A stretch of DNA of 64,000 nucleotides, from assembly GCF_003952365.1 (NCBI RefSeq), contig NZ_CP034443.1:4085001-4149000 (forward strand), given 5' to 3'. This stretch comes from Mesorhizobium sp. M9A.F.Ca.ET.002.03.1.2. GTDB lineage: Bacteria; Pseudomonadota; Alphaproteobacteria; Rhizobiales; Rhizobiaceae. Made by a program: the position numbers and the translations under genes. Position 1 is the first letter of the stretch, and each line of letters opens with the position of its first letter. Positions 7,883 to 56,573 of the stretch are shown in pieces. The notes below the pieces were generated by a model. The model searched no databases and was not told where the DNA came from. It worked only from the letters and a program-made list of their open reading frames with translations.

Positions 7883-9418
7883 ATGAGCACGCCAGAACCC
7901 TTTCGCGAAGTGCCGCATCGCGGCCTGATCACCGTTGCGCTCATGCTGGCGACGATCATGCAGGCGCTCGATACGACGATTGCCAACGTCGCGCTGCCGA
8001 CCATGACCGGCGATCTCGGCGCCTCCCCTGACAACATCAACTGGGTACTGACTTCCTACATCGTGGCCGCGGCCATCATGACGCCGGTCACCGGCTGGCT
8101 TGCCGACCGCCTTGGCCGCAAGGAACTGTTTCTGACGGCGGTGGTCGGCTTCACCGTCTTCTCGATGCTGTGCGGTCTGGCATGGAGCCTGGAGAGCATG
8201 GTGCTCTTCCGCCTCATGCAAGGCGTGTTCGGCGCGGCGATCGTGCCACTGTCGCAGACCTTCCTGCTCGACATCAACCCCAAGGAGCGCCACGGCCAGG
8301 CGATGGCTATCTGGGGCGCCGGCATCATGCTGGGACCGATCCTCGGCCCGACCCTGGGTGGCTGGTTGACCGAGAATTTCAACTGGCGCTGGGTCTTCTT
8401 CATCAACCTGCCGGTCGGCATCATCGCCTTCCTTGGCATGGCCGCATATCTTCCCAGCATTGCCAGGCGGGTGCGGAGCTTCGATTTTTTCGGCTTCGCC
8501 ATGATATCGCTCGGCGTCGGCGCGCTTCAGCTGATGCTCGATCGCGGCGGCGAGGTCGACTGGTTTTCCTCGGTCGAGATTTGGATCGAGCTTGGTCTTT
8601 CGATAACCGGCTTCTGGGTGTTCATCATTCACACGATGACGGCGGAGCACCCCTTCATCGACCCGAAGATCTTCCTCGACCGCAATTTCGTGACCGGGCT
8701 GGCATTCATCTTCGTCATGGGTGTGCTCATCCTCGCGAGCATGTCGCTGCTGCCGCCAATGCTCTCCACCATCTTCGGCTATCCGACCGTCACCATCGGT
8801 GTCGTCATGGGGCCGCGCGGTGTCGGCACGATGATTTCGATGCTCTTGGTCGGCCGCATCATGCACAGGGTCGATGCCAGAATCCTCGTCGTCATCGGCT
8901 TCCTGCTGACCGCGCAGTCGCTCCATACGATGTCCAGCTTCTCGCCGCAGATGGACGATTGGCTCATCATCAGTTCCGGCGTCATCCAGGGGCTGGGAAT
9001 GGGCATGGTGTTCGTGCCTCTGTCGACCGTGGCCTTCGCCACGCTCGACGCACGCTTCCGCACCGATGCCACGGCGCTGTTCAGCCTGGTGCGCAATCTC
9101 GGCTCGTCGATCGGTGTGTCGGTGGTGACGGTTCTGCTGGTCCGCAACACGCAGGTCAACCATGCCGAGCTCTCGGCCTACGTCAATCCGTTCAATCCCA
9201 ATATCTGGGCGGCCTCGCCAGCGGCGGCGGGCGGCGATCCAACGGCGCTTTCCCAGGTGGACAGGCTGGTGAATATCCAAGCAATGATGATCTCTTACGT
9301 CAATGACTTCAAGCTGCTGATGATGATGACGCTGCTTGCCGTCCCGTTTGTTTTCCTGCTGCGCAAGCCAAGGGCCGGCCCGTCCGCCGGGGGGGCAGCA
9401 GCCGCGCATATGGACTGA
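7883..9418 (+). CDS. MFS drug:H+ antiporter, DHA2 family (EmrB-like)
   Basis: 511-residue proton-driven multidrug exporter of the 14-helix DHA2 group. Motif C-type glycines (GAGIMLGPILGPTLGGWL, about residues 145-162), the WLADRLGRKELF loop-2/3 motif (about 73-84) and the early LDTTIANVALPTM signature are present. Its partner is the HlyD adaptor encoded upstream. I chose the ATG at 7883, which gives the usual EmrB N-terminus; a longer reading would translate the upstream repeat. The protein ends in a short Gly/Ala-rich tail. Confidence 0.92.
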   Translation: MSTPEPFREVPHRGLITVALMLATIMQALDTTIANVALPTMTGDLGASPDNINWVLTSYIVAAAIMTPVTGWLADRLGRKELFLTAVVGFTVFSMLCGLAWSLESMVLFRLMQGVFGAAIVPLSQTFLLDINPKERHGQAMAIWGAGIMLGPILGPTLGGWLTENFNWRWVFFINLPVGIIAFLGMAAYLPSIARRVRSFDFFGFAMISLGVGALQLMLDRGGEVDWFSSVEIWIELGLSITGFWVFIIHTMTAEHPFIDPKIFLDRNFVTGLAFIFVMGVLILASMSLLPPMLSTIFGYPTVTIGVVMGPRGVGTMISMLLVGRIMHRVDARILVVIGFLLTAQSLHTMSSFSPQMDDWLIISSGVIQGLGMGMVFVPLSTVAFATLDARFRTDATALFSLVRNLGSSIGVSVVTVLLVRNTQVNHAELSAYVNPFNPNIWAASPAAAGGDPTALSQVDRLVNIQAMMISYVNDFKLLMMMTLLAVPFVFLLRKPRAGPSAGGAAAAHMD

Positions 9419-9968: not shown

Positions 9969-10254
9969 GCCCGCCTGACATAAGCGCGATCATGGCTTTT
10001 GCCGGGCAGGCGCTCAAAAATCGCGGTCGCTGCGGCGTCTTCCCAGCAGTGAAATCCGACGCGTGGTACCGGGACGGAATACCAGTTTGGCTCGTCGGAG
10101 ACCTTTAATTCTCCTCTTTGCGAATGGCAGCGATGCGCCGCTTCGGGCGCCATCAAGGGACATTGATCGATGAAATCCACGGGCATTGCCCTCACGGCAA
10201 AAGACAAGCCTATGTCCTGACCAGAGCAAGCCGGCGATCCAAACGATGCGCTCT
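9969..10254. other. Intergenic region without a convincing gene
   Basis: 286 bp between the CAP gene and the cyclase gene. A minus-strand reading ends in a TGA overlapping the CAP start codon, and an AGAGGAGA motif lies inside it, but no start codon follows that motif and no family match is apparent. It most likely holds the promoter of the CAP gene. Confidence 0.4.
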
Positions 10255-11973
10255 TTAGTCGGGAAGGCCAGCCTTGCGGTAGCCTTCGACGAAGCGCTGG
10301 AGCACTTCCTCGTTGTCGAATGGCTGCGATGTTGCCCAGTGCCTGATGCTGAAATGGGGATCGTTCATCATAAAGAATTCCGCCTCCTGACGGGCTTCAT
10401 CCAGGCGCCCGAGCTGCGCGAGGGCTGCCGCAAGCAAGCGCCGCGACGTGGTGCGGTAGGTTTCCGGCTTGCGCAAAGCCTCGACCGCGGATTGATAGTC
10501 GCCGAGCGCATAATAAGCTTGGCCTGCCATCCAATAGTACCATCCCGGTGGGCGCGGATTGAGCCGCAACGCCCGCTTCACGAATTCGACGCCCTTGACC
10601 GCGTCGCCTCTCAGGGTGATGAGATCCGAGCGTATCGCCCAGGCATCGGCATGATTAGGATCGAGCTTGAAGGTCGCCTCGAACTCGGCATCCGATTCCG
10701 CGTAACGCCGTTCGTGACCAAGTATGATTCCCAGCCCCCAGCGGTTCCCCGCATCGTTAGGGTCGAGCGCCACAGCCCGCTGCGCTTCCGCCAGGGCGCG
10801 AGGCTGGTTGGTTTCCTTCGGCTCGTTCCAGAACAGCCAGCCGAGCCAAAGATTGAGGGCCAGCAAGCTATGTGCCTCGGCATAGTCGGGATCGAGTCCG
10901 ATCGCCTTTTCCAGGAGCATGCGAGCTTCCCGCGCGCCTAACCCGGTCTGAAAACTGACGCCGCGGGCTCGCACGCAAAGGTCATAGGCTTCGAGACTCG
11001 TCGGCCGTTTGCGCGCCGGCTGTCCGGCCAATCGGCCGACAAGGGCTTCGACGATCTTGGCCGTAACCTCGTCCTGCACTGCAAAGATGTCCTTGAGGCT
11101 GCTGTCGTAGCGCTCGGCCCAGATATGATCGCCGCCGATCGCGTCGATCAGCTGCGCATTGATGCGCACGCGCGCCGCAGCGCGCCGGGCGCTGCCTTCA
11201 ACCACATAGCGCACCCCAAGATCACGCGCGGTCAAACGCACATCGACCGACCGCCCCTTGTAAGCAAAGGTTGAGTTGCGCGCGATGACGAAGAGGCCGG
11301 CTGAGCGAGACAGGTCGGTGATCAGGTCTTCGGTCAAGCCGTCGACAAAGGTTTCCTGCTCCGGATCATTGCTCATGTTGGTGAAAGGCAAGACCGCGAT
11401 CGAGGGCTTGTCGGGCAATTCGAGCGATGCCGGTCGGCCGACCGGAGCGGCTCTCGGAACGTGCAGGTTCACCCGGTAGCAGTATATCGGCTCGGCTATG
11501 TTCTTCACCCGCTGCTCGCCCATGGGCTCGAACGCAAACGCCAGCTTCTGCCTGACCTCCTTGGACACCTTCTCCGAAACGCAGATGCCACCGGGCTCGG
11601 CGAGTTGTTGGAGACGCGACGCCACGTTCACGCCCTCGCCATAGCGATCGTCCCCTTCGACGATCACTTCTCCAAGGTTGATTCCGATCCGGACTTCGAA
11701 GCGCTGGTCTTCGGCGACGCTCGCGTTACGCTCCGCCATGCCGCGCTGAAGCGTGACCGCGCATTCGACCGCATCCACCACGCTGCCGAACTCCGCCAGC
11801 AGGCCGTCTCCCATCAGCTTGAAGATTCGCCCGTGTCGCGTCGCGATTTCCGGCTCGAACAGCTCTTTGCGGCCACGTTTCAGCCGGTCGAAGGTGCCCG
11901 CTTCATCCGCCTCCATGAGCGCCGAGTAGCCGACAACATCGATGGCAAGGATTGCAGCGAGCTTCCGCTCCAT
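10255..11973 (-). CDS. Class III adenylate/guanylate cyclase with TPR repeats
   Basis: 572-residue soluble protein. Residues about 5-170 are a class III nucleotidyl cyclase domain: metal-binding Asp12 (AIDVVGYSALM) and Asp56 (KLMGDGLLAEF), and the NVASR motif with Asn116 and Arg120. Residues about 185-320 form a TolB/FlgO-like domain (SIAVLPFTNMSNDPEQETFVDGL, ending DIFAVQDEVTAKIV). The rest, about 330-560, consists of TPR repeats rich in ALDPNDAGN-type turns. It should make cAMP, with the TPR part sensing a protein partner. Rhizobia carry many such fusions. The start at 11973 has GAGG upstream; an earlier in-frame start would add an unrelated leader. Confidence 0.9.
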   Translation of the reverse strand: MERKLAAILAIDVVGYSALMEADEAGTFDRLKRGRKELFEPEIATRHGRIFKLMGDGLLAEFGSVVDAVECAVTLQRGMAERNASVAEDQRFEVRIGINLGEVIVEGDDRYGEGVNVASRLQQLAEPGGICVSEKVSKEVRQKLAFAFEPMGEQRVKNIAEPIYCYRVNLHVPRAAPVGRPASLELPDKPSIAVLPFTNMSNDPEQETFVDGLTEDLITDLSRSAGLFVIARNSTFAYKGRSVDVRLTARDLGVRYVVEGSARRAAARVRINAQLIDAIGGDHIWAERYDSSLKDIFAVQDEVTAKIVEALVGRLAGQPARKRPTSLEAYDLCVRARGVSFQTGLGAREARMLLEKAIGLDPDYAEAHSLLALNLWLGWLFWNEPKETNQPRALAEAQRAVALDPNDAGNRWGLGIILGHERRYAESDAEFEATFKLDPNHADAWAIRSDLITLRGDAVKGVEFVKRALRLNPRPPGWYYWMAGQAYYALGDYQSAVEALRKPETYRTTSRRLLAAALAQLGRLDEARQEAEFFMMNDPHFSIRHWATSQPFDNEEVLQRFVEGYRKAGLPD

Positions 11974-12672
11974 GTTGGGCCTCAGTAAAGATTCACGACT
12001 CGCAAGCCGCAGGTCAGAGGCAGGCAGGACCGGCGCCTCCGGCCTTACCGGCCTATAATACCACAGATCACGCCTCAAGGGCGGCCCGAACCGGATACCC
12101 CTGAAGCATCTGGAGACGAGGACGCTCAAATCAGGTGTTGTCATCCTCCATTACGCGCCGGAGAGCAAACAATGACGATCGATCCGCTCTTTCCCGTCGA
12201 CCAAAAGCGGGTCGCGTTTGGGCGGATTCAAGCGATGCGCTTTTAGTTCTTGTTTTTATGCATGTCGTTATCGCAAAACCGCTGCACACTTTTGCGCGAC
12301 ATGCATTTAGGCTTGTCGAAATGGGAGGGCTTGGGGAAGCGGCGCGCTCCGGACGATCGGCGGCCAAGGGGCGTAGCAGCCATCACCTTAAATCTGTGAA
12401 TGACCGCTTATGGATCTGGCGCGGCCAGCTCGAAGAGCTGAACTAAGGTCGGAAGCTGTCGTCGCGCAACTCTGAGGCGTGAACGGCAGCTACGCTCTAC
12501 TTATTCCTGAAACCGCCAGTCGGCTGCCGGCCCGAACGCGACGTTAGAGTCTCTGCTCGGCAATGATGGCTTCTGGCGCTACCCGCGCATTCCGATAATC
12601 GGCCCGGACGGCAAATCCCACCCAAAGCGGTTGCCCGGCCTCGGGCATCATGCGTCAGATCTTCACCACTGG
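11974..12672. other. Long intergenic region with a family A repeat
   Basis: About 700 bp without a supported gene. It contains the upstream region of the cyclase gene and the 45-bp repeat at 12260-12304. The remainder (about 12310-12670) has scattered stops in all frames and no recognisable domain. It may contain decayed sequence. Confidence 0.5.
12260..12304 (-). repeat. Interspersed 45-bp repeat, family A, copy 1 (inverted)
   Basis: Begins GCATGTCG and ends CGACATGC, with the internal sequence 'ttatcgcaaaaccgctgcac' and 'acttttgcg'. It is the reverse complement of the copies at 26870-26914 and 58021-58065, all 45 bp long with a few substitutions. Confidence 0.85.
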
Positions 12673-13039
12673 CTATTCCGCCGCCACGAGCGTCGTTTCC
12701 GGGGTCGATGAAACCCGGCCGACTCGTTCATCCTCGGTATGTTCCCACCAGTCGCCAAGCGCGTCGATGAGCGGCACAAGCCTGAGGCCGGGCGCTGTGA
12801 GGTCGTAGTCCACGCGCAGCGGATAGCCGGTATGCGCCGTTCGCCGCACGATCCCGGCTTCCTCCAGCTTGCGCAGTTCCAGCGCCAGAATGCGGTGCGA
12901 TACGGTCGGGTTGTCGCGCCTCAGGTCGCTGAAGCGCTTGGTCCCGTCCTTGAGATAGTAAGAGCAGCAAGGTAGGCCAGCGACCGCTGAGCACACGCAT
13001 AGCCTCTTCGATCGGGCAGCTTGAAACGACGTCTTTCAT
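12673..13039 (-). pseudogene. HxlR-family transcriptional regulator, frameshifted
   Basis: The start, MKDVVSSCPIEEAMRVLSGRWPTLLL, carries the conserved Cys and GRW of the HxlR family. Continuation in the next frame gives YYLKDGTKRFSDLRRDNPTVSHR and a normal winged helix ending in ALGDWWEHTEDE. One extra T around 12960-12961 (TCTTAC where TCTAC is expected) breaks the frame after about 26 codons. Without it the gene would encode about 121 residues, the normal family length. It is divergent from the GST gene, 106 bp away, which it probably regulated. It could be a sequencing error. Confidence 0.8.
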
Positions 13040-48301: not shown

Positions 48302-48733
48302 TCGCCGGGCGGTCGCGGGCAAGCTGCGCAGCGTCGATCAACCCGGCGTGACAACGCCAGAGTCTTGGGAGCGAACGATCGCCCTCGTCGAAGATTTCGC
48401 TAATCGCCAACGCTGCAGGACGAGCGCCAAGACCCGAGCTGCCAATCTCCCCCCTTGAGGGCAGGGCAATCGCATTTGGATTCTTGTGAAGATGGACCCC
48501 CACCCTAACCCTCCCCACAAGGGGGAGGGAACGCTGCCGCGCGCCTCGCAAGAGCAGGCGTGGGAAGGGTATTAGCTGAGGCCAGCGTTGAAGACGCAGC
48601 CGAAGGCGTTGTGTTCATCGCTACAACTGCATCCTGGCATTTTGCGATGCTGTTGGCTGCTGCTTTTCGCCGTCTTCCATGCCTTGGCGGGCTAATGTCC
48701 TTGAGCTAATGTTCGTTGGAGGGAGGTCACGAC
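48302..48733. other. Intergenic region with a family C-like repeat
   Basis: 432 bp without a supported gene. Around 48470-48535 lies 'ccaccctaaccctccccaca' followed by 'agggggaggga', a short relative of the repeats at 32478 and 59521. The remainder should contain the promoter of the EamA gene. Confidence 0.5.
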
Positions 48734-49687
48734 ATGCAGGCAATGCCGATTGCTCATCATGGGGAGCAGCCTGCCGTCGGGTCCTCTATGTCAGGCTATC
48801 CGGCCGCCGTCCTATGCTGGCTTCTTTCGGCTGGTGTGTATATCGCGGCCAAATGGGTGGCGCCTGAAATGCCTCCCTGGGGCCTCTGCTTCTGGCGGCT
48901 GACCCTGGCCTGCGCCATCCTGCTGCCGATAGTGCACCGTCATCACGGCGCGATGATAGGGCTTGTACGATCTCGAGCCGTGGAGGTTCTCGCCGTAGGG
49001 GCGATCGGCCTCACGCTGTGCCAAGGCATGATCTACCATGGCCTCAATGACACCGATGCAACCACGGCCGGCATCATCATGGCGCTATCTCCTGTCATGA
49101 CGATGGTGCTTGCTCGTTTCGTGCTTGGCGAGCCGCTCGGGCTTTGGAAGTCGCTTGGCGCGCTGGTCGCCCTGGCCGGAATGATGGTAATCGTCGCGCA
49201 CGGGAACCTGACAACGCTCCTTCAACTCCGGTTCAATCCTGGCGAGTTATGGATTGTAGGTAGCGCGTTCAGTTGGGGCCTATACACCGTGCTTTTGCGC
49301 CGTGCGAAATTCGGCATCGAACTCTTGCCGATGGTCGTGCTCCTGCTCGGAGCCGGTGCGCTGGTCGCCTTGCCTTTCCACGTGTGGGAATTGTTTAACG
49401 GCGAACGCTCCGCCTTGCATGTCAATGGCATGCTCGCACTCGCCTATGTGGCAGGTCCGGGCGGTGCCTTGATGTACTATCTCTACAACCGAAGCGTCGA
49501 AACACTTGGCGCGAGCAGGGCGAGCATGCTGCTCTATTTGCAGACAATGTTCGTCGCCTTGCTCGCCTATTTGTTGCTCGGAGAGGGCTTGCACGACTAC
49601 GATCTGGTTGGCGCTGCCTTTATCGTAGCCGGGATAGTGCTCGCCACTGTGCTCAAACCCAGGCCGAGTCCCGCACCCGTCGTGTAG
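48734..49687 (+). CDS. EamA/DMT superfamily transporter
   Basis: 317-residue inner-membrane protein with ten helices in two EamA repeats. The first runs about 30-160 (WRLTLACAILLPIV, TTAGIIMALSPVMTMVLARFVLGEPLG) and the second about 175-310 (GELWIVGSAFSWGLYTVLLRR, ASMLLYLQTMFVALLAYLLLGEGLHDYDLVG). Such proteins export metabolites or amino acids; this substrate is unknown. GGGAGGTCACGAC precedes the start at 48734. It stands alone. Confidence 0.9.
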   Translation: MQAMPIAHHGEQPAVGSSMSGYPAAVLCWLLSAGVYIAAKWVAPEMPPWGLCFWRLTLACAILLPIVHRHHGAMIGLVRSRAVEVLAVGAIGLTLCQGMIYHGLNDTDATTAGIIMALSPVMTMVLARFVLGEPLGLWKSLGALVALAGMMVIVAHGNLTTLLQLRFNPGELWIVGSAFSWGLYTVLLRRAKFGIELLPMVVLLLGAGALVALPFHVWELFNGERSALHVNGMLALAYVAGPGGALMYYLYNRSVETLGASRASMLLYLQTMFVALLAYLLLGEGLHDYDLVGAAFIVAGIVLATVLKPRPSPAPVV

Positions 49688-49757
49688 AAATCCACCGGGT
49701 GGCGGGGCGGCGCGACATCGATCGCCGGCAAGTTGGGCGCTGTCGCATCGAAGCGTC

Positions 49758-49860
49758 TCACGGCTTCACGTGCAAAGGCGCATATTCCAGCGCCACCACG
49801 CCATTGCTGAACGGCGCGGCCGAGACCAGTTCCAGCGGCAGTTGCTGGCAGGAACGCTAT
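49758..49860 (-). pseudogene. Possible C-terminal remnant of a RibD/DHFR-like gene
   Basis: One minus-strand frame reads LPLELVSAAPFSNGVVALEY, then APLHVKP and a stop at 49758. The LELV...FSNGVVALxY pattern is the usual end of RibD_C/dihydrofolate reductase-like proteins. It is preceded by a TAG, so no gene is left. Not similar enough to the remnant at 39560-40015 to be called a copy. Confidence 0.4.
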
Positions 49861-49866
49861 GCCAGC

Positions 49867-50220
49867 TCAGGGATACTTCGTCGTGGCCTGGGGGGGCGGA
49901 TCGCCCTCGAGTTCCTTCGGCAGCGGCAGACTCGAGCACCGCAAATGGATCTCGCGGGCGAACATCTTTCGCTGCTTTTGCTCGTGCTCCTTGATGGCCG
50001 CCGCGAGCCCCAATCCGTAGGGGCCAAGGAAGATGCCTGTCCCCCAACCTGGATGCTTTTTTTCGCGGGCATCATAGTCCGAAGCCTCGACACGGGCTTG
50101 CTGACATTCCGGCGATAGCCATTTCGGGTCCTGCGTCGAAAGCGACGCTCCATACTTGACCGGAGAGCTTACACATCCAGTTGCTGCCAAGGCCAGCGCG
50201 GCAAACACGGCAAGTCTCAT
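49867..50220 (-). CDS. Small lipoprotein of unknown function
   Basis: 117-residue lipoprotein. Signal MRLAVFAALALAATGC with the lipidated Cys at about residue 16. The mature part is polar: QDPKWLSPECQQARVEASDYDAREKKHPGWGTGIFLGPYGLGLAAAIKEHEQKQRKMFAREIHLRC. No domain recognised. GAAGGAACCGGG precedes the Met at 50220. A longer in-frame reading upstream lacks a good ribosome site. It borders the restriction island. Confidence 0.75.
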   Translation of the reverse strand: MRLAVFAALALAATGCVSSPVKYGASLSTQDPKWLSPECQQARVEASDYDAREKKHPGWGTGIFLGPYGLGLAAAIKEHEQKQRKMFAREIHLRCSSLPLPKELEGDPPPQATTKYP

Positions 50221-50452
50221 CCCGGTTCCTTCTCCAGAGCATTTTCGAGCCTCCTTGCCGCAACCGCAGGGAGACAGCGGCGATGAGACGGGGGAACACA
50301 ATTCTCGTTACCGTTGGTTTAACGAGGGGATGTGAGTGCCTGCCTCGGCGCCACTATCGGCAAGCTCGTCCGGCCTGGACTAAGCTCCCAAGATCGGATT
50401 TTGGTGTTACATCTGAGGCAGATATTCCCAAAGAACGCATTACAGGAAGATC

Positions 50453-51352
50453 ATGGGATTCGGGGTCTTTATTCACCGCTCTGATTCGATTTACAACGAC
50501 CGCCCTGCCGAGCAATATCAGTTTCCTCGCCCGTATCTGCGCCGCGTCCAAGCATGCGTCGGCGGCTGGATCATTTACTACGAACCCAGCAAGGTAAACG
50601 ACACTCGTGGCTATTACGCCGTAGCCAAGGTCCAACAGGTCATTCCCGATCCTGCAACACCTGATATGTACCTCGCTCTGATTGAGCCCGGAACCTACCT
50701 CGATTTCGTCAATCCTGTTGCATTTAACGGAACCGATGGTCTCGTTGAGCGGGGCCTGCTCAATGACAAGGGACGGATTTCTGGTCGCGCTCAATCGGCC
50801 GTCCGCCCAATCAGTCCTGCCGATTTCAACCGCATTATCGACCTGGGTCTGGACACGAACGAGTTGCTGCTGCCGCGCGTTGACGAGGTCGACACGTCTA
50901 TCGGTTTTCAGGATGAGCAGGCGCCATTCGAATTCGAGCAGAGCCGTGATCGCGTAAACTACATCGGATCGCGAATTGTACGGGACCGCATTTTCCGCCG
51001 CATCGTCTTGCGCGCCTATGATGAGCGGTGCGCGATCACGGGACTAAAGTTGATAAATGGCGGCGGCCGAGCAGAGGTTTCCGCCGCCCACATTCGACCA
51101 GTCGAAAAGAACGGACCCGATATCATCAACAATGGGATCGCACTGTCCGGCACCGCGCACTGGATGTTCGATCGCGGGTTGATCAGCCTATCCGATGACC
51201 TGGAAATCCTGATCTCGCGACAGGTCAATGACCTCGACAGCGTGCAGGCATTCATCAACAAGACTCGCCGCGCGCTTCCGCCAGGCCGGCAGTTTGAACG
51301 CCCGCATCCTCGGTTTTTGCAGTGGCACCGTGAGCACTGCTTTAAGCAGTGA
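50453..51352 (+). CDS. HNH endonuclease of a restriction system
   Basis: 299-residue protein. The C-terminal third is an HNH nuclease of the HNH_2 type: RRIVLRAYDERCAITGLKL (zinc/structural part), AEVSAAHIRPVEKNGPDIINNGIALSGTAHWMFDRGLISL (the catalytic His, Asn and His). The N-terminal 190 residues may recognise DNA or a modification, as in McrA-like enzymes. Convergent with the MmeI-like gene, with 26 bp between stops. Base composition looks lower in GC than the flanks. Its last 56 bp are duplicated at 54845-54900. Confidence 0.9.
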   Translation: MGFGVFIHRSDSIYNDRPAEQYQFPRPYLRRVQACVGGWIIYYEPSKVNDTRGYYAVAKVQQVIPDPATPDMYLALIEPGTYLDFVNPVAFNGTDGLVERGLLNDKGRISGRAQSAVRPISPADFNRIIDLGLDTNELLLPRVDEVDTSIGFQDEQAPFEFEQSRDRVNYIGSRIVRDRIFRRIVLRAYDERCAITGLKLINGGGRAEVSAAHIRPVEKNGPDIINNGIALSGTAHWMFDRGLISLSDDLEILISRQVNDLDSVQAFINKTRRALPPGRQFERPHPRFLQWHREHCFKQ

Positions 51353-51353
51353 G
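51298..51353 (+). repeat. 56-bp direct repeat, left copy (3' end of the HNH gene)
   Basis: Identical over 56 bp to 54845-54900. It includes the stop codon of the HNH gene and the palindrome CACTGCTTTAAGCAGTG. Together the two copies bracket the MmeI-like gene. Confidence 0.95.
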
Positions 51354-51378
51354 ACGCGCCCAGGCTGTGTCTCTGATG

Positions 51379-54300
51379 CTAACCGGCACGGCGTGCCTTG
51401 CCAGGACGTCGCGTAACTGTCGCAGATTGTTCCGCTATCTTCTCACGGTCGCCGAGAGGAAGCTCCTCTTGTTTTTGCTTCTTGCCTGGAATTGGCAACA
51501 GCAGTTGCGGTTGCGCTCTTAATTCCTCAGGTGTCTTGCGTCGCGTCTTTTTCACCGGTCGTGCAGATGCAGACACGGTACCGGCTGCGGTGCGAGCAAG
51601 ATTGAGTTCGAGCAGTCTCGCCAAGGCGTCTTCTTCCGAAATTTCCGCTGGCCAGCCATAGGCGGCGGCAACAGCTGCGTCGAGTTCGCAGTGCACATCA
51701 ACAAGCCATTGCGGGCGCTGATTGTAGAGGTTGGTCAGAGTCCGCTCACGAAGGATAGAAGCCGCGACTGCGTCTTTGGGTAAAATGCGTTCCGGATAGC
51801 CGGCTCCGACTTCAGGCTCAATACGAATGAGATCGGCCGGATTGAGCCACCGATTGCGGAGATCATCGAGCTGCCTAGCGGCTTGAGCGATAGCCATAGC
51901 ACGGGGATCATTTTCACTGCGTCTAGCGGGAATGTTCGGTGTCAGGCCATCTGGAAATGGAAAAGTTTCGAAGGTGGTTGTGGGTGTATAGCGCGGATCA
52001 TTGCCCACCCCGAGCCATGTTCCCAGTCGCAAGGACCACGCTTCGTGAAACCGGGAATGGAGAATTCCGAAGATCGTCTCATCGTCGCGCGCAATTGCGA
52101 TTGTCGCGCTATCCGCGAGAACTGTGCCATCCATCCAAGCGAATATTCGGTACTTGGCGACACGTGGCGTCAAGATGTAGCGCCTTAGCGATGAGACTTT
52201 TGCCAACATCGCAGGTCGGGGCTCGACGTGGCGCCACCAGCGTTCGCGATAAGCGTCTCGCCTATTTTGAGCCCTTTCTGGAAATACATGCTCTTTCACG
52301 TATTGGAATGGGGCTTCGTATAGAGAGGCTCCCTGTTCCGAAAGTTCCGAACCAAAATCGACAATCCACATATCGCGTGAACGGCGCGTCACATCCATTC
52401 CATTGCGCCATGGGCGCAACACATCTGAATTCGGCTTACCATTGGGATTCAGAGGAAGCTGCAACCACTCCCGCGCAAGCGTTCCTGGGATATCAAAGGC
52501 GCCACCCTTGGTATCTCCCATAAATGCAACGTTATAATTTTCTGCGAGTCGGCGGACACGGGTGAGGTTCGTTACTCCGGCAGTAAGATCCGGATTGATC
52601 TCCGCAACATCGTTGCCATCGAGTCGTAAGGTATCCTCGCCTTCACCGAAGCATATGAGCGACACACGAACGGCCGCACCATCGATAATCCACGGCTCAT
52701 CGCTCCAGGCTTCAAAAATACGGCTCTCAGATGCGATCTGATCAAGAACTTTTCGGTTGGCGCCTCCACGGATCGAATTGGTAGCGACAAGACCGACGCG
52801 TCGTGAATGACCGAATTTGAGGGCAGCACGCGCTTTTTCAAACCAATAGCAGACGAGATCGGCCTCTCGCGAAACGCGGTCATTATAAACATCGAACAGA
52901 CGATCCACGGTTTCGTCGCCCAAGCCGTGGCGCATTAACCGTATGCCGAGGAATGGAGGGTTGCCGACGATGAACTCCGCACCGGGCCAATCAGTCTCGA
53001 TAAACTTCGTGCTGGCTGCCGTAATCTCTAGACCGTCATTCCCTCTTGTCTCGCCGTTGACTGAGGGCGGCATTGCCGTGACGAGTGCGTCGCCCCTTTC
53101 AATTGCTTTGAGTTTACGCAGGATGGGAATCGATTTCGAACGGATGCCGTTTCGCAATTGCCACTGGATGTCGCCTATCCAAATCGTGGTTCGGGCAAGC
53201 TCGGCCGCCGTCGTGTTGATCTCTATTCCGCGAAGGATTTCCGGGCCGACGAGTGGCAGTTGCGGACTAAGGCCAAGTATTTCGCATTCGAGGTTGGCCC
53301 TGTTTTCGATGTCTTTAACGCCCTGCAGGGCAAGATAAAGAAAATTCCCCGATCCGCATGCCGGATCGAGAATACGCAAATTGCGCAGTCGTTCCAGGAA
53401 TTGGGCGCGAACTTCCTCTGCGGCTTCCTTCCGCGTCATGCGTCGGTGCGGTTTCCTACGCATCGGCGGTGTACGTTCGCCATTTAATAGCGCGGCGATC
53501 TGCTCCTTGGCGACCTCCCATTCTGCCCGAAGCGGCCTCAGAATGACGGGGTCGACAAGCTTCATAATCTTACCTGGATCAGTGTAGTGTGCGCCGATCT
53601 GTGCTCTTTTGTCTGGATCGAGGAAGCGCTCGAATAGCGTTCCAAAAATCGTCGGGTCGATCAGACTCCAGTCGAGACTGTCGGCAGCGATCAGCAGCCC
53701 GATATCGCCGTCGTCGAGCGGCAGAGCACGGCTGCCGTCGAAAAGGCCCCCGTTGAACCAAGCAATTTCGGTGAGGTCGAATTCGCCACCGCCCTCCATC
53801 GCCTCGAACAACTTGCTGAGGTAACCCATCGCTCTCTCTGGGCTTTGGGCGGAGCGCCTCAGCAGCTTCGCAAACAACCCGTCCGGCAACAGCTTCACAC
53901 TTTGGGCGAAGAAGCAGAACACGAGCTGATTGACGAAATGAGCGATTTCATCGGGTGTACCCCGTCCTTGCAGACGCAACGCGATCGTGGAGAACTTGTC
54001 GGCCGCCTCGGCCGTCACAGCAGCGCGCGTCTTAGACGGCCTCAGTTTTTCGGGGTCATAGAAGACATTTCGCAGGATTTCGCGCGGGGCTGGCTCGGCC
54101 AGTTCGTCAAGCGTGATCTCGTAGGTTACAGGGACCGTATTCGTCCATGCAGTGTGAATCCGGAAACGCTCGATATCGCAGACGACTTGCAGCGGCGGAC
54201 TTTGTAGAGCCGGTGCGTAGCGGACAAGTTGCAAGAGGGCGTCGTCGAGATTGCCGTTCTTTCGTTTATACTCCCACGCAAAGTGGCCCTTTTTCCAGAC

Positions 54301-54525
54301 ATCGGCAAAGCCGCGCCCACCCGCCACTTTGCTTGTACCTTTTTCGAATGCGAAGAACTGGCCTGTGGGGTCTTCTTCGGTTGGTGTCGGATGACCGAAG
54401 AGTGCGCAAAGGTCGATAAAGTGTTCCTGAGCAGATTGGCGCTCAGTCAGTGAGGCTCTTTTCCACTTTCTGATGAACGCAACCGGCGTCATCATTGGTG
54501 CGAGCGCACCAACACTCGAACTCAT
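51379..54525 (-). CDS. MmeI-like type IIL restriction-modification enzyme (methyltransferase with fused nuclease)
   Basis: 1048-residue enzyme. The N-terminal MmeI_N domain has a nuclease motif at Asp75, Glu85 and Lys87 (ADVWKKGHFAWEYK), with the same D-x9-E-x-K spacing as MmeI. After a helical spacer comes the gamma-class adenine methyltransferase: motif I DPACGSGNF at about 387 and motif IV NPPF at about 522. A target-recognition domain follows (about 650-850) and a C-terminal helical domain (about 870-1048). It should cut and methylate the same asymmetric site. The sequence is distinctly less GC-rich than its surroundings. Confidence 0.9.
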   Translation of the reverse strand: MSSSVGALAPMMTPVAFIRKWKRASLTERQSAQEHFIDLCALFGHPTPTEEDPTGQFFAFEKGTSKVAGGRGFADVWKKGHFAWEYKRKNGNLDDALLQLVRYAPALQSPPLQVVCDIERFRIHTAWTNTVPVTYEITLDELAEPAPREILRNVFYDPEKLRPSKTRAAVTAEAADKFSTIALRLQGRGTPDEIAHFVNQLVFCFFAQSVKLLPDGLFAKLLRRSAQSPERAMGYLSKLFEAMEGGGEFDLTEIAWFNGGLFDGSRALPLDDGDIGLLIAADSLDWSLIDPTIFGTLFERFLDPDKRAQIGAHYTDPGKIMKLVDPVILRPLRAEWEVAKEQIAALLNGERTPPMRRKPHRRMTRKEAAEEVRAQFLERLRNLRILDPACGSGNFLYLALQGVKDIENRANLECEILGLSPQLPLVGPEILRGIEINTTAAELARTTIWIGDIQWQLRNGIRSKSIPILRKLKAIERGDALVTAMPPSVNGETRGNDGLEITAASTKFIETDWPGAEFIVGNPPFLGIRLMRHGLGDETVDRLFDVYNDRVSREADLVCYWFEKARAALKFGHSRRVGLVATNSIRGGANRKVLDQIASESRIFEAWSDEPWIIDGAAVRVSLICFGEGEDTLRLDGNDVAEINPDLTAGVTNLTRVRRLAENYNVAFMGDTKGGAFDIPGTLAREWLQLPLNPNGKPNSDVLRPWRNGMDVTRRSRDMWIVDFGSELSEQGASLYEAPFQYVKEHVFPERAQNRRDAYRERWWRHVEPRPAMLAKVSSLRRYILTPRVAKYRIFAWMDGTVLADSATIAIARDDETIFGILHSRFHEAWSLRLGTWLGVGNDPRYTPTTTFETFPFPDGLTPNIPARRSENDPRAMAIAQAARQLDDLRNRWLNPADLIRIEPEVGAGYPERILPKDAVAASILRERTLTNLYNQRPQWLVDVHCELDAAVAAAYGWPAEISEEDALARLLELNLARTAAGTVSASARPVKKTRRKTPEELRAQPQLLLPIPGKKQKQEELPLGDREKIAEQSATVTRRPGKARRAG

Positions 54526-55169
54526 GACGCAATTCCCCTCCGCCCGCCGCCTGTATTCAGGCTGGCACCGTAATATTTCAATCTATCCTGAAAGAAGTCA
54601 ACTGAGGGTCGGAAACAGGGTGAATCGTAGTCAGATTTACTGAAGTTGGCTTGCTGGACGAATTGCCTTTTTTGACGGTTGGCAATCGAACTAATCCAAG
54701 CGGAATCTTTTTACTATTACACGAGCTTAGCAATCAAGTTTGCAAGAGCTTACGCTCGCCACACCGGGCGGATGGCGGCCCGTTGCTGATGATGCAGGTC
54801 CTCCAAACCCGGGTAGAAGTTGCTCGTTGCTATCAGGCCCCTTCACGCCCGCATCCTCGGTTTTTGCAGTGGCACCGTGAGCACTGCTTTAAGCAGTGAG
54901 GCGGCGTCTCCTTGTCGATATGGATGATGCTGGCACCGTCACTCGGCGTCGTAAGGTGCACTTAGCGAGGCCAAGACCGCGCCCACCTCGCCCGATCTCT
55001 CCGACGAGCTGGTTGCTCAGGCGGATTTCACGACCTTTGTTTCGGCGCCGGGTGGGTGGCCGGCCATTTCCAACCAGTAGGGGATGCGGGTAACGTCAGC
55101 AAAGTGGAACAATCCGGGAGGCAGCGGGTTCCTAAGATGAAGGGCGATCTGTTTCGGAGGAAGATTGCG
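54526..55169. other. Upstream region of the MmeI-like gene and right repeat boundary
   Basis: Between the MmeI-like start and the DUF6600-like gene. From 54526 to 54844 the sequence is comparatively AT-rich, with no gene, and should hold the MmeI-like promoter. Then comes the right 56-bp repeat (54845-54900), after which GC-rich host-like sequence resumes. Confidence 0.6.
54845..54900 (+). repeat. 56-bp direct repeat, right copy
   Basis: Exact duplicate of 51298-51353, 3547 bp away, carrying only the end of the HNH reading frame (PHPRFLQWHREHCFKQ and stop). No part of the HNH gene further upstream is present here. Confidence 0.95.
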
Positions 55170-56573
55170 ATGAAACGCGTCCTTGCCCAAACTGCGGTAC
55201 GACTGATGCTGGGCGGCGTAACCGCCTGTCTGCTCACGGTCGTCCAAATTCCCAACCCGATCATGCCGTTGTCGCTTGTGTCCGAGGCAAGGGCTGCCAC
55301 CGAGGTTTCGATCAGCACATTCTACGAAGACCTGTCTTCCCATGGTGATTGGGTTTCGTATCACGGAGCGTCCGTCTTCGTGCCGGTTGATGTGCCTGAC
55401 GATTGGCGTCCGTATACTGTTGGACACTGGGTCTATACCGAGCAGTATGGCTGGCTGTGGGTATCCGACGAGCCATTCGGCTGGGCGACGTACCATTACG
55501 GTCGGTGGGGCTATGCCGACGATATCGGCTGGTACTGGGTTCCGGGCACTCGTTGGGCGCCAGCATGGGTGAGTTGGCGTCGTGAGAGGGAGCACATGAT
55601 TTGGGCTCCGCTGCCGCCGCGCCGCGATCCGGATTTGATTTCAATCGAGGTGACCTTCGACACGACGCCGGATTTTTACTGGGTTGTAGTCCCCACCCGC
55701 GAATTCCTTGCTGTGGACATTTCTGTCGTCGTTATCCGTGATGAGCCGGAGTTTGTGCGCATTGTCGAGGCGGCCGAGCCGGCCGGCGACGTGACGATCC
55801 AGAACAACATAGTGATCAACAAAGTCATTGATGTTGATCTGATCGAGAAGGAGACGAACCAGGAGGTGACTGCCGTCAAGGTCAGCAAGACCGACGCGCC
55901 CGAGCAGTCCGGCAAATTGGACAACGATAAGGTCACGGTCTTTGAAGGTGAGGTGAAAGCCGACGCCGATGCCCAACCAGCTGAGCTCAAAGACATCGAG
56001 GAGGTGAAGCAGGTTCAGGCTGGCCGCAAATCGAAGCCGACCGAAGGCGCAGCAACGACCGAACAGGCCGAGCCGGAAAAGACCGCCAAGCCTGAGAAGC
56101 CGACGACCAAGGAGCCGCCCGCCGCCGAGCAGCAGACCGAGCCCGAGCAGGCGGCCAAGCCTGAGAAGCCGACGACCAAGGAGCCGCCCGCCGCCGAGCA
56201 GCAGACCGAGCCCGAGCAGGCGGCCAAGCCTGAGAAGCCGAAGGCCAAGAAGCAGCGCGCCGTCGAGCAGCAGCAGGCCGAGCCGGAACAGGCGGCCAAG
56301 CCTGAGAAGCCGAAGACCAAGAAGCAGCGCGCCGTCGAGCAGCAGCAGGCCGAGCCGGAACAGGCGGCCAAGCCTGAGAAGCCGAAGACCAAGAAGCAGC
56401 GCGCCGTCGAGCAGCAGCAGGCCGAGCCGGAACAGGCGGCCAAGCCTGAGAAGCCGAAGGCCAAGAAGCAGCCCGCCGCCGAGCAGCAGCAAGCCGAGCC
56501 CGAGCAGGCGGCCAAGCCCAAGCCTCAGAAGCAGGAAAACAAGACGTGCGATCCGCAGACTGAGAACTGCTAG
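55170..56573 (+). CDS. DUF6600-like secreted protein with repetitive C-terminal tail
   Basis: 467-residue exported protein. A signal-type N-terminus (about 1-40, ending ARA) precedes a domain of repeated Trp/Tyr-Gly strands: GDWVSYHGASVFVPVDVPDDWRPYTVGHWVYTEQYGWLWVSDEPFGWATYHYGRWGYADDIGWYWVPGTRWAPAWVSWR, described here as about residues 52-140 and typical of DUF6600. From about residue 300 there are seven tandem 23-24 residue units of the form EPEQAAKPEKPKTKKQRAVE. CGGAGGAAGATTGCG precedes the chosen start. Function unknown; the tail may span the envelope or bind cell wall. Confidence 0.82.
   Translation: MKRVLAQTAVRLMLGGVTACLLTVVQIPNPIMPLSLVSEARAATEVSISTFYEDLSSHGDWVSYHGASVFVPVDVPDDWRPYTVGHWVYTEQYGWLWVSDEPFGWATYHYGRWGYADDIGWYWVPGTRWAPAWVSWRREREHMIWAPLPPRRDPDLISIEVTFDTTPDFYWVVVPTREFLAVDISVVVIRDEPEFVRIVEAAEPAGDVTIQNNIVINKVIDVDLIEKETNQEVTAVKVSKTDAPEQSGKLDNDKVTVFEGEVKADADAQPAELKDIEEVKQVQAGRKSKPTEGAATTEQAEPEKTAKPEKPTTKEPPAAEQQTEPEQAAKPEKPTTKEPPAAEQQTEPEQAAKPEKPKAKKQRAVEQQQAEPEQAAKPEKPKTKKQRAVEQQQAEPEQAAKPEKPKTKKQRAVEQQQAEPEQAAKPEKPKAKKQPAAEQQQAEPEQAAKPKPQKQENKTCDPQTENC
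56070..56540 (+). repeat. Tandem coding repeat (69-72 bp units)
   Basis: Seven consecutive units of 69 or 72 bp, each beginning GAGCCGGAA or GAGCCCGAG and encoding EPEQAAKPEKP-type residues. Internal units are nearly identical at DNA level, which indicates recent expansion. The first and last units have diverged. Confidence 0.92.

Follow-up and report, generated by a model that had tools for sequence, protein, structure and literature searches.

A single-gene restriction-modification (R-M) unit has probably inserted immediately after the stop codon of an HNH nuclease gene already present in Mesorhizobium sp. M9A.F.Ca.ET.002.03.1.2, bringing an MmeI-like gene with about 320 bp of upstream DNA and duplicating 56 bp of its target. 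The locus lies in the window, the whole 64,000-nucleotide stretch that was analysed, which belongs to a genome of 6.4 Mb assembled as a single contig. The MmeI-like gene is bracketed by a direct repeat that is perfect over 56 bp (51298-51353 and 54845-54900; 59 bp if one mismatch is allowed) and duplicates the end of the HNH gene. A sequence-only reading of the window had described this arrangement, and its coordinates and identity were confirmed. Between 46 and 60 kb, no direct repeat across the locus other than the 56-bp pair exceeds 33 nt in length or 82% in identity; two weaker ones of 31 and 33 nt (77 and 82% identity) also span it. Chance is excluded as the source of an exact 56-bp repeat within 14 kb.

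Repeat copy 1 (51298-51353, plus strand) consists of the final 55 nt of the HNH gene, including the TGA stop codon at 51350-51352, plus 1 nt. Copy 2 (54845-54900, plus strand) is the duplicated HNH 3' end with the same stop codon at 54897-54899, and it is matched by a profile of the HNH end with E = 3.9e-15. The 3491 bp between them (51354-54844) form the inserted unit, with junctions assigned from the repeat ends and the comparison of flanks. Reading the sequence also bore out the earlier statement that recombination between the copies would remove the MmeI-like gene together with 319 bp upstream of it and leave the HNH gene complete. The unit has a GC content of 55.3% compared to 62.8% for the window, and the HNH gene itself has 56.4%. 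Third-position GC is 57.9 in the MmeI-like gene, 65.0 in the HNH gene, and 84-88 in the adjacent transporter and LacI genes.

The target of the insertion is an HNH_2 nuclease gene (50453-51352, plus strand) that encodes 299 aa and matches PF13391 at 34.6 bits, with a cut-off of 21. Within the HNH part the protein is similar to 6yex (E = 1.6e-6) and to TagI (6ghs, E = 2e-4). Its classification as a phosphorothioate-DNA HNH restriction enzyme (NF045808) was rejected because the score of 100.2 bits is below the curated cut-off of 180. The palindrome CACTGCTTTAAGCAGTG at the HNH end was considered as a recognition hairpin and set aside, as there was no clear covariation beyond codon choice when judged by eye. 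Related HNH genes also occur on plasmids, with matches in 99 of 72,556 records, 43 of them across at least 80% of the protein.

The MmeI-like gene (51379-54525, minus strand) is an uninterrupted open reading frame of 1048 aa with four MmeI Pfam domains, and it is predicted to encode a type IIG/IIL-like R-M enzyme. The protein matches the PADLOC type IIG model PDLC03627 at 1013 bits. Alignment to MmeI (type IIL, PDB 5hr4) shows both the nuclease and the methylase motifs within a single chain, and we take an N-terminal D...ExK nuclease joined to an N6-adenine methylase to be the signature of the MmeI family. The window protein, a predicted enzyme read from sequence, differs from MmeI in its length (1048 versus 919 aa). 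Enzymes of the MmeI family cut about 20 bp from their site and methylate one strand.

Relatives of the MmeI-like protein at E = 1e-100 or better were found in 14 of 146 genus genomes, the window's genome included. Three MmeI genes in these 146 genomes have at least 79% identity (those of the window, G114 and G126), and all three reside in HNH slots. The G126 protein is 83% identical, and the G114 gene is interrupted, its two pieces being 79 and 94% identical. The next MmeI relatives (72-73%) have no DNA similarity to 40-64 kb of the window outside MmeI among hits of at least 50 nt. The region from the MmeI start codon to copy 2 (54526-54844, minus strand) partly resembles the same region in G126. 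Positions 54526-54640 are similar (0/1000 shuffles as good), 54641-54740 are dissimilar (649/1000), and 54741-54844 are patchily similar (1/1000), although the final 55 bp of this last segment alone are not (398/1000). A patatin-gene fragment, considered for the DNA upstream of copy 2, was dropped given this partial resemblance to the upstream region of the G126 MmeI gene.

The ends of the unit bear no mark of their own, since no terminal inverted repeats were detected there (820/1000 shuffles score equally well). The bases ACGC begin both the unit and the repeat, possibly by chance. The unit carries a single gene, and neither an integrase nor a transposase lies within it according to the open reading frame list and Pfam. 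The sequence-only reading was also correct that the surroundings contain no integrase: Phage_integrase matches in the genome come no closer than about 225 kb, and the region was covered by Pfam searches with five of its proteins and, for the rest, by eye from the open reading frame list. One alternative is that a tyrosine recombinase acted in trans, in which case the 56 bp would be attL and attR within the HNH 3' end. Identical copies, a restored gene 3' end and foreign cargo fit the anatomy of such a reaction, and there are 13 Phage_integrase matches in the genome, but all are at least that distance from the locus and the palindrome at the HNH end varies among orthologues without clear compensation, judged by eye.

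Comparison of HNH orthologues provides further evidence on this alternative. Orthologues at E = 1e-60 or better are present in 44 of the 146 genus genomes, including the window's, and the 43 others were compared, 42 of them with the 3' end. No duplicate of the HNH end was found in any of these 42 loci, or in seven plasmid HNH loci. The extra matches to the HNH end, among the three best listed per locus, are 29 nt at 86% for the best E-value (L127) and 41 nt at 78% for the longest (L115). Four of the 42 loci test little because the downstream sequence compared is only 67, 352, 759 and 1152 bp (L108, L110, L120 and L003, respectively). In a genus-wide DNA search with the 64-bp HNH end, which scored at most six candidates per genome, the window's genome was the only one listed with two strong matches. 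The sequence-only reading had anticipated different cargo that terminates in these 56 bp, but none was present in the 42 HNH loci or among the genus-wide matches listed. Its suggestion of an integrase in trans is not supported, given the lack of second copies in the chromosomal and plasmid loci compared and genome G114, where MmeI and HNH genes adjoin without a repeat. A recombinase in trans is quite unlikely. As a separate observation, the 64-bp HNH end has a single strong match of 86% at G180:C261:1310-1373, in a genome that has no listed HNH orthologue at E = 1e-60.

The slot itself is shared with relatives. The LacI gene that lies downstream of HNH in the window also does so in 21 of the 42 orthologue loci, always with a single copy of the HNH end and with other or no cargo in between. 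In L039 and L041, 160 and 245 bp separate the HNH gene from the start of the LacI region, and the other LacI-slot loci hold other DNA as judged from mechanically called reading frames. An exact empty site with the same HNH allele was not found among the genomes compared, one per species, and, apart from roughly the first dozen bases, the 178 bp past copy 2 have no convincing match among the loci compared. The proposal of a defence cassette beside an HNH gene is supported as far as an apparent inserted unit, a preserved HNH gene and a slot that is otherwise filled or nearly empty in relatives are concerned, but its site-specific integration is not. The slot with other or no cargo was found in other genomes, and the exact empty site of the allele was not.

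PADLOC was run on eight of 28 cargo frames from the slot. It scored an L033 protein as Shedu SduA (335 bits), an L119 protein as DitA-like (63 bits) and an L133 protein, encoded next to an MmeI gene, as a PD-Lambda-3_A-like nuclease (101 bits); L106 gave a dCTPase match that is weak (22 bits). No PADLOC match was obtained for four cargo proteins, namely the 1364-aa protein of L109, the 612-aa protein of L040, and the smaller ones of L119 and L033. The dCTPase match of L106 (G184) belongs to a 533-aa protein, and by eye this locus has a cluster resembling nucleotide metabolism at about 0.06-4.6 kb past the HNH gene, with an adenylosuccinate-synthetase-like protein that has a kinase-like start, and with an HD protein. 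The first gene past HNH in L038 (G048) and L109 (G157) is on the minus strand and encodes similar proteins of 1339-1364 aa that have, by eye, a P-loop start and a nuclease-like end; this may be an undescribed defence gene. The surroundings of the slot vary as well. About 2.1 kb of the window (48307-50413), containing an EamA transporter gene and others, is missing in G157, where a TRAP transporter block runs directly into the HNH gene; that upstream block is 95.7% identical to the window. The DUF6600 gene of the window contains six tandem units of 69-72 bp (56064-56489), the copy number of which could vary.

The sequence next to the two copies distinguishes the native side of the locus. The 12 nt past the copy-2 stop codon (54900-54911, plus strand) resemble native HNH downstream sequence: eight of the 42 orthologues share at least 8/12 nt, a total reached by 12 of 5000 shuffles in a test that treats the orthologues as independent though they are related. 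By the same test, none of the 42 shares at least 8/12 nt with the 12 nt past copy 1 (745/5000 shuffles). The flank of copy 2 is nearer to the orthologue downstream sequence in 27 loci, that of copy 1 in 10, and five are ties. The match of the 12 nt past copy 2 to the native downstream sequence indicates that the original gene end is probably at copy 2, which is likely the native right edge, and that the MmeI-like gene entered between the copies. This bears on the explanation that the repeat is an old partial duplication of the HNH gene that arose independently of the MmeI insertion. Repeats of locus parts are frequent in relatives (15 of 43 loci, the window included), but the non-coding copy 2 shows no difference from copy 1 and the DNA on its right looks like that downstream of native HNH genes; an old duplication is very improbable.

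The identity of the two copies also argues for duplication of a single allele. Among the 42 orthologues, no pair out of 861 is identical over the 56-bp stretch; the median is nine mismatches, two pairs differ by one base, and the window's nearest orthologue has three mismatches. Since no two orthologues are identical, the two window copies probably derive from a single allele and not from a donor allele and a recipient allele. It is possible that the copies became identical by gene conversion after an older event, or that a donor was very close. The HNH body of the window is nearest to those of G133 and G184 (91.1 and 90.3%). In the relatives with the closest HNH bodies the 56 bp are 82-91% alike and the body about 90%, and the lower similarity of the 56 bp is a weak hint that exchange may have occurred; a mosaic HNH 3' end was not adopted because its support was weak.

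These data were used to weigh a second route, cassette replacement. A donor HNH-MmeI segment would have recombined within HNH on the left and been joined illegitimately on the right, leaving copy 1 as the donor end and copy 2 as a leftover of the recipient. Such a scar would account for the repeat ending at the gene end, and G114 has HNH and MmeI genes in the same order, orientation and slot as the window, with 25 nt between the stop codons compared to 26 in the window. However, donor and recipient alleles should differ, as expected from the 861 orthologue pairs, even if two of these differ by one base only. The HNH body of G114 is only 82.6% identical to that of the window, farther than G133 and G184, and the HNH-MmeI spacers of the window and G114 do not align (645/2000 shuffles as good), which favours separate insertions but is not proof of them. 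For its part, the insertion reading is weakened by G114, in which no second HNH end occurs: its MmeI gene follows HNH after 25 nt with no repeat, which means that not every such locus has a long duplication.

Other duplications in the same slot are the remaining argument for cassette replacement. Direct repeats of at least 40 bp near the slot were found in the 15 of 43 scanned loci mentioned above, and at the HNH end in the window only. L033 and L109 each have a duplicated piece of the LacI 5' end (371 bp at 87% and 443 bp at 88%, respectively), pieces from upstream of HNH and from the HNH 5' end are duplicated at 83-87% in L107, and 623 bp upstream of HNH are duplicated at 95.5% in L031. The LacI 5' duplicate lies across an extra gene in the same slot in L109 (G157; 12433-12872 and 14911 onward) and in L033 (G017; 10220-10590 and 12288 onward). 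These long, diverged flank duplications look as if donor and recipient flanks were kept side by side. The window repeat contrasts with them in being exact and short, and we consider cassette replacement unlikely as the origin of the window locus.

A second HNH slot was recognized in the same comparison. In all 14 loci tested, each chosen outside the LacI slot, the HNH gene lies 23-82 bp before the DNA that follows the MmeI gene in G126, and in nine of the 14 the upstream side matches G126 as well. The MmeI gene of G126 occupies this second slot, where there is no HNH match, and a profile search found no remnant of copy 2 in G126.

Repeats around MmeI genes were surveyed in 79 MmeI loci, comprising 78 of 80 further loci and the window. 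In 10 of the 79, the window among them, a bracketing repeat outscored every one of 160 control pairs drawn across loci. Of the other nine, four have dispersed or palindromic repeats, one has paralogous genes and one low-complexity DNA, which leaves two-copy brackets in L186, L199 and L194, three of 78 at most. The L186 bracket was confirmed to be a duplicated tRNA-Cys. In L199, from an Acidimicrobiia MAG, a 70-bp repeat of 98.6% identity (2809-2878 and 8756-8825) overlaps the stop codon of a reading frame and brackets a 5.9-kb segment that contains the MmeI gene; it is possibly a second case like that of the window. In a fairer within-locus control, three of 46 MmeI gaps were bracketed compared to none of 92 control gaps, but these three belong to the six loci set aside as other repeat types. 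A general rule that repeats bracket MmeI genes was rejected, and no such claim is made.

The preferred reading, insertion with target duplication, would proceed from an ancestral site with the order HNH, 56 bp, GGCGGCGTCTCC..., DUF6600 and LacI. The unit, consisting of the MmeI-like gene and its upstream region, would enter right behind the HNH stop codon, and the 56 bp of target would be duplicated with one copy on each side so that the HNH gene stays whole. Most likely the final 56 bp were copied twice during a template switch or during repair of a break whose ends were staggered, presumably with no dedicated integrase involved. The insertion would be recent because the copies are identical, and recombination between them would be expected to remove the unit cleanly. 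Counting against this reading are the failure to find an exact empty site, the poor matching of the DNA past copy 2, the repeat-free G114 locus, ends that bear no inverted repeats, and the scarcity of clean brackets around other MmeI genes. Two MmeI genes, those of the window and G114, lie within 26 nt of an HNH stop codon and have unalignable spacers. It is conceivable, at a low probability, that MmeI-like units are drawn to the HNH 3' end and that the restriction gene uses cutting, its own or that of the HNH protein, to open a landing site that leaves the resident nuclease gene unharmed.

Insertion of R-M genes with long target duplication was reportedly described by Nobusato et al. in 2000 and by Furuta et al. 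in 2010, to which PMC3031569 and PMC3874152 both refer; PMC4978471 refers to the former as well. The window repeat, perfect over 56 bp, is longer than the target repeats of transposons. Excerpts of PMC3874152 describe target duplications, long and variable and on the order of 100 bp, at the insertion of some R-M systems, those of PMC3031569 report long target duplications by R-M systems from genome comparison, and those of PMC3154945 also state that R-M insertion occurs with long target duplication. A Helicobacter pylori R-M cluster flanked by a direct repeat is mentioned in an excerpt of PMC4978471. The window locus resembles the insertions in these excerpts in having an R-M unit without a transposase, a target repeat of tens to about a hundred bp, and a single-copy target in relatives. 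It differs from them in that the repeated DNA is the extreme 3' end of a different nuclease gene, left intact, and in that a single gene for an MmeI-like enzyme, here from Mesorhizobium, makes up the unit. No description of an MmeI insertion with target duplication was met among the titles and abstract openings listed from the open-licence literature, and two papers that name both MmeI and target duplication do so only in their reference lists. The mode of movement looks like one already known for R-M genes and not like a new kind of mobile element, and the locus is likely a well-resolved example of R-M insertion with long target duplication in a variable, partly defensive slot.

The slot can also be compared to the core defence hotspots (cDHS) of Pseudomonas aeruginosa, for which exchange through conserved flanks is proposed in the excerpted part of PMC10250203. 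Both have fixed neighbours and genome-specific cargo that consists partly of defence genes, but one boundary in the window is itself a variable nuclease gene that is found in two chromosomal slots and on plasmids. How cargo enters hotspots that lack an integrase remains open according to the same excerpt. The long, diverged flank duplications in the same slot of relatives suggest that several routes may feed one slot. Against this background the window locus is a readable footprint of one likely entry, in which both junctions are visible, one side looks native, and the resident gene was spared by the duplication.
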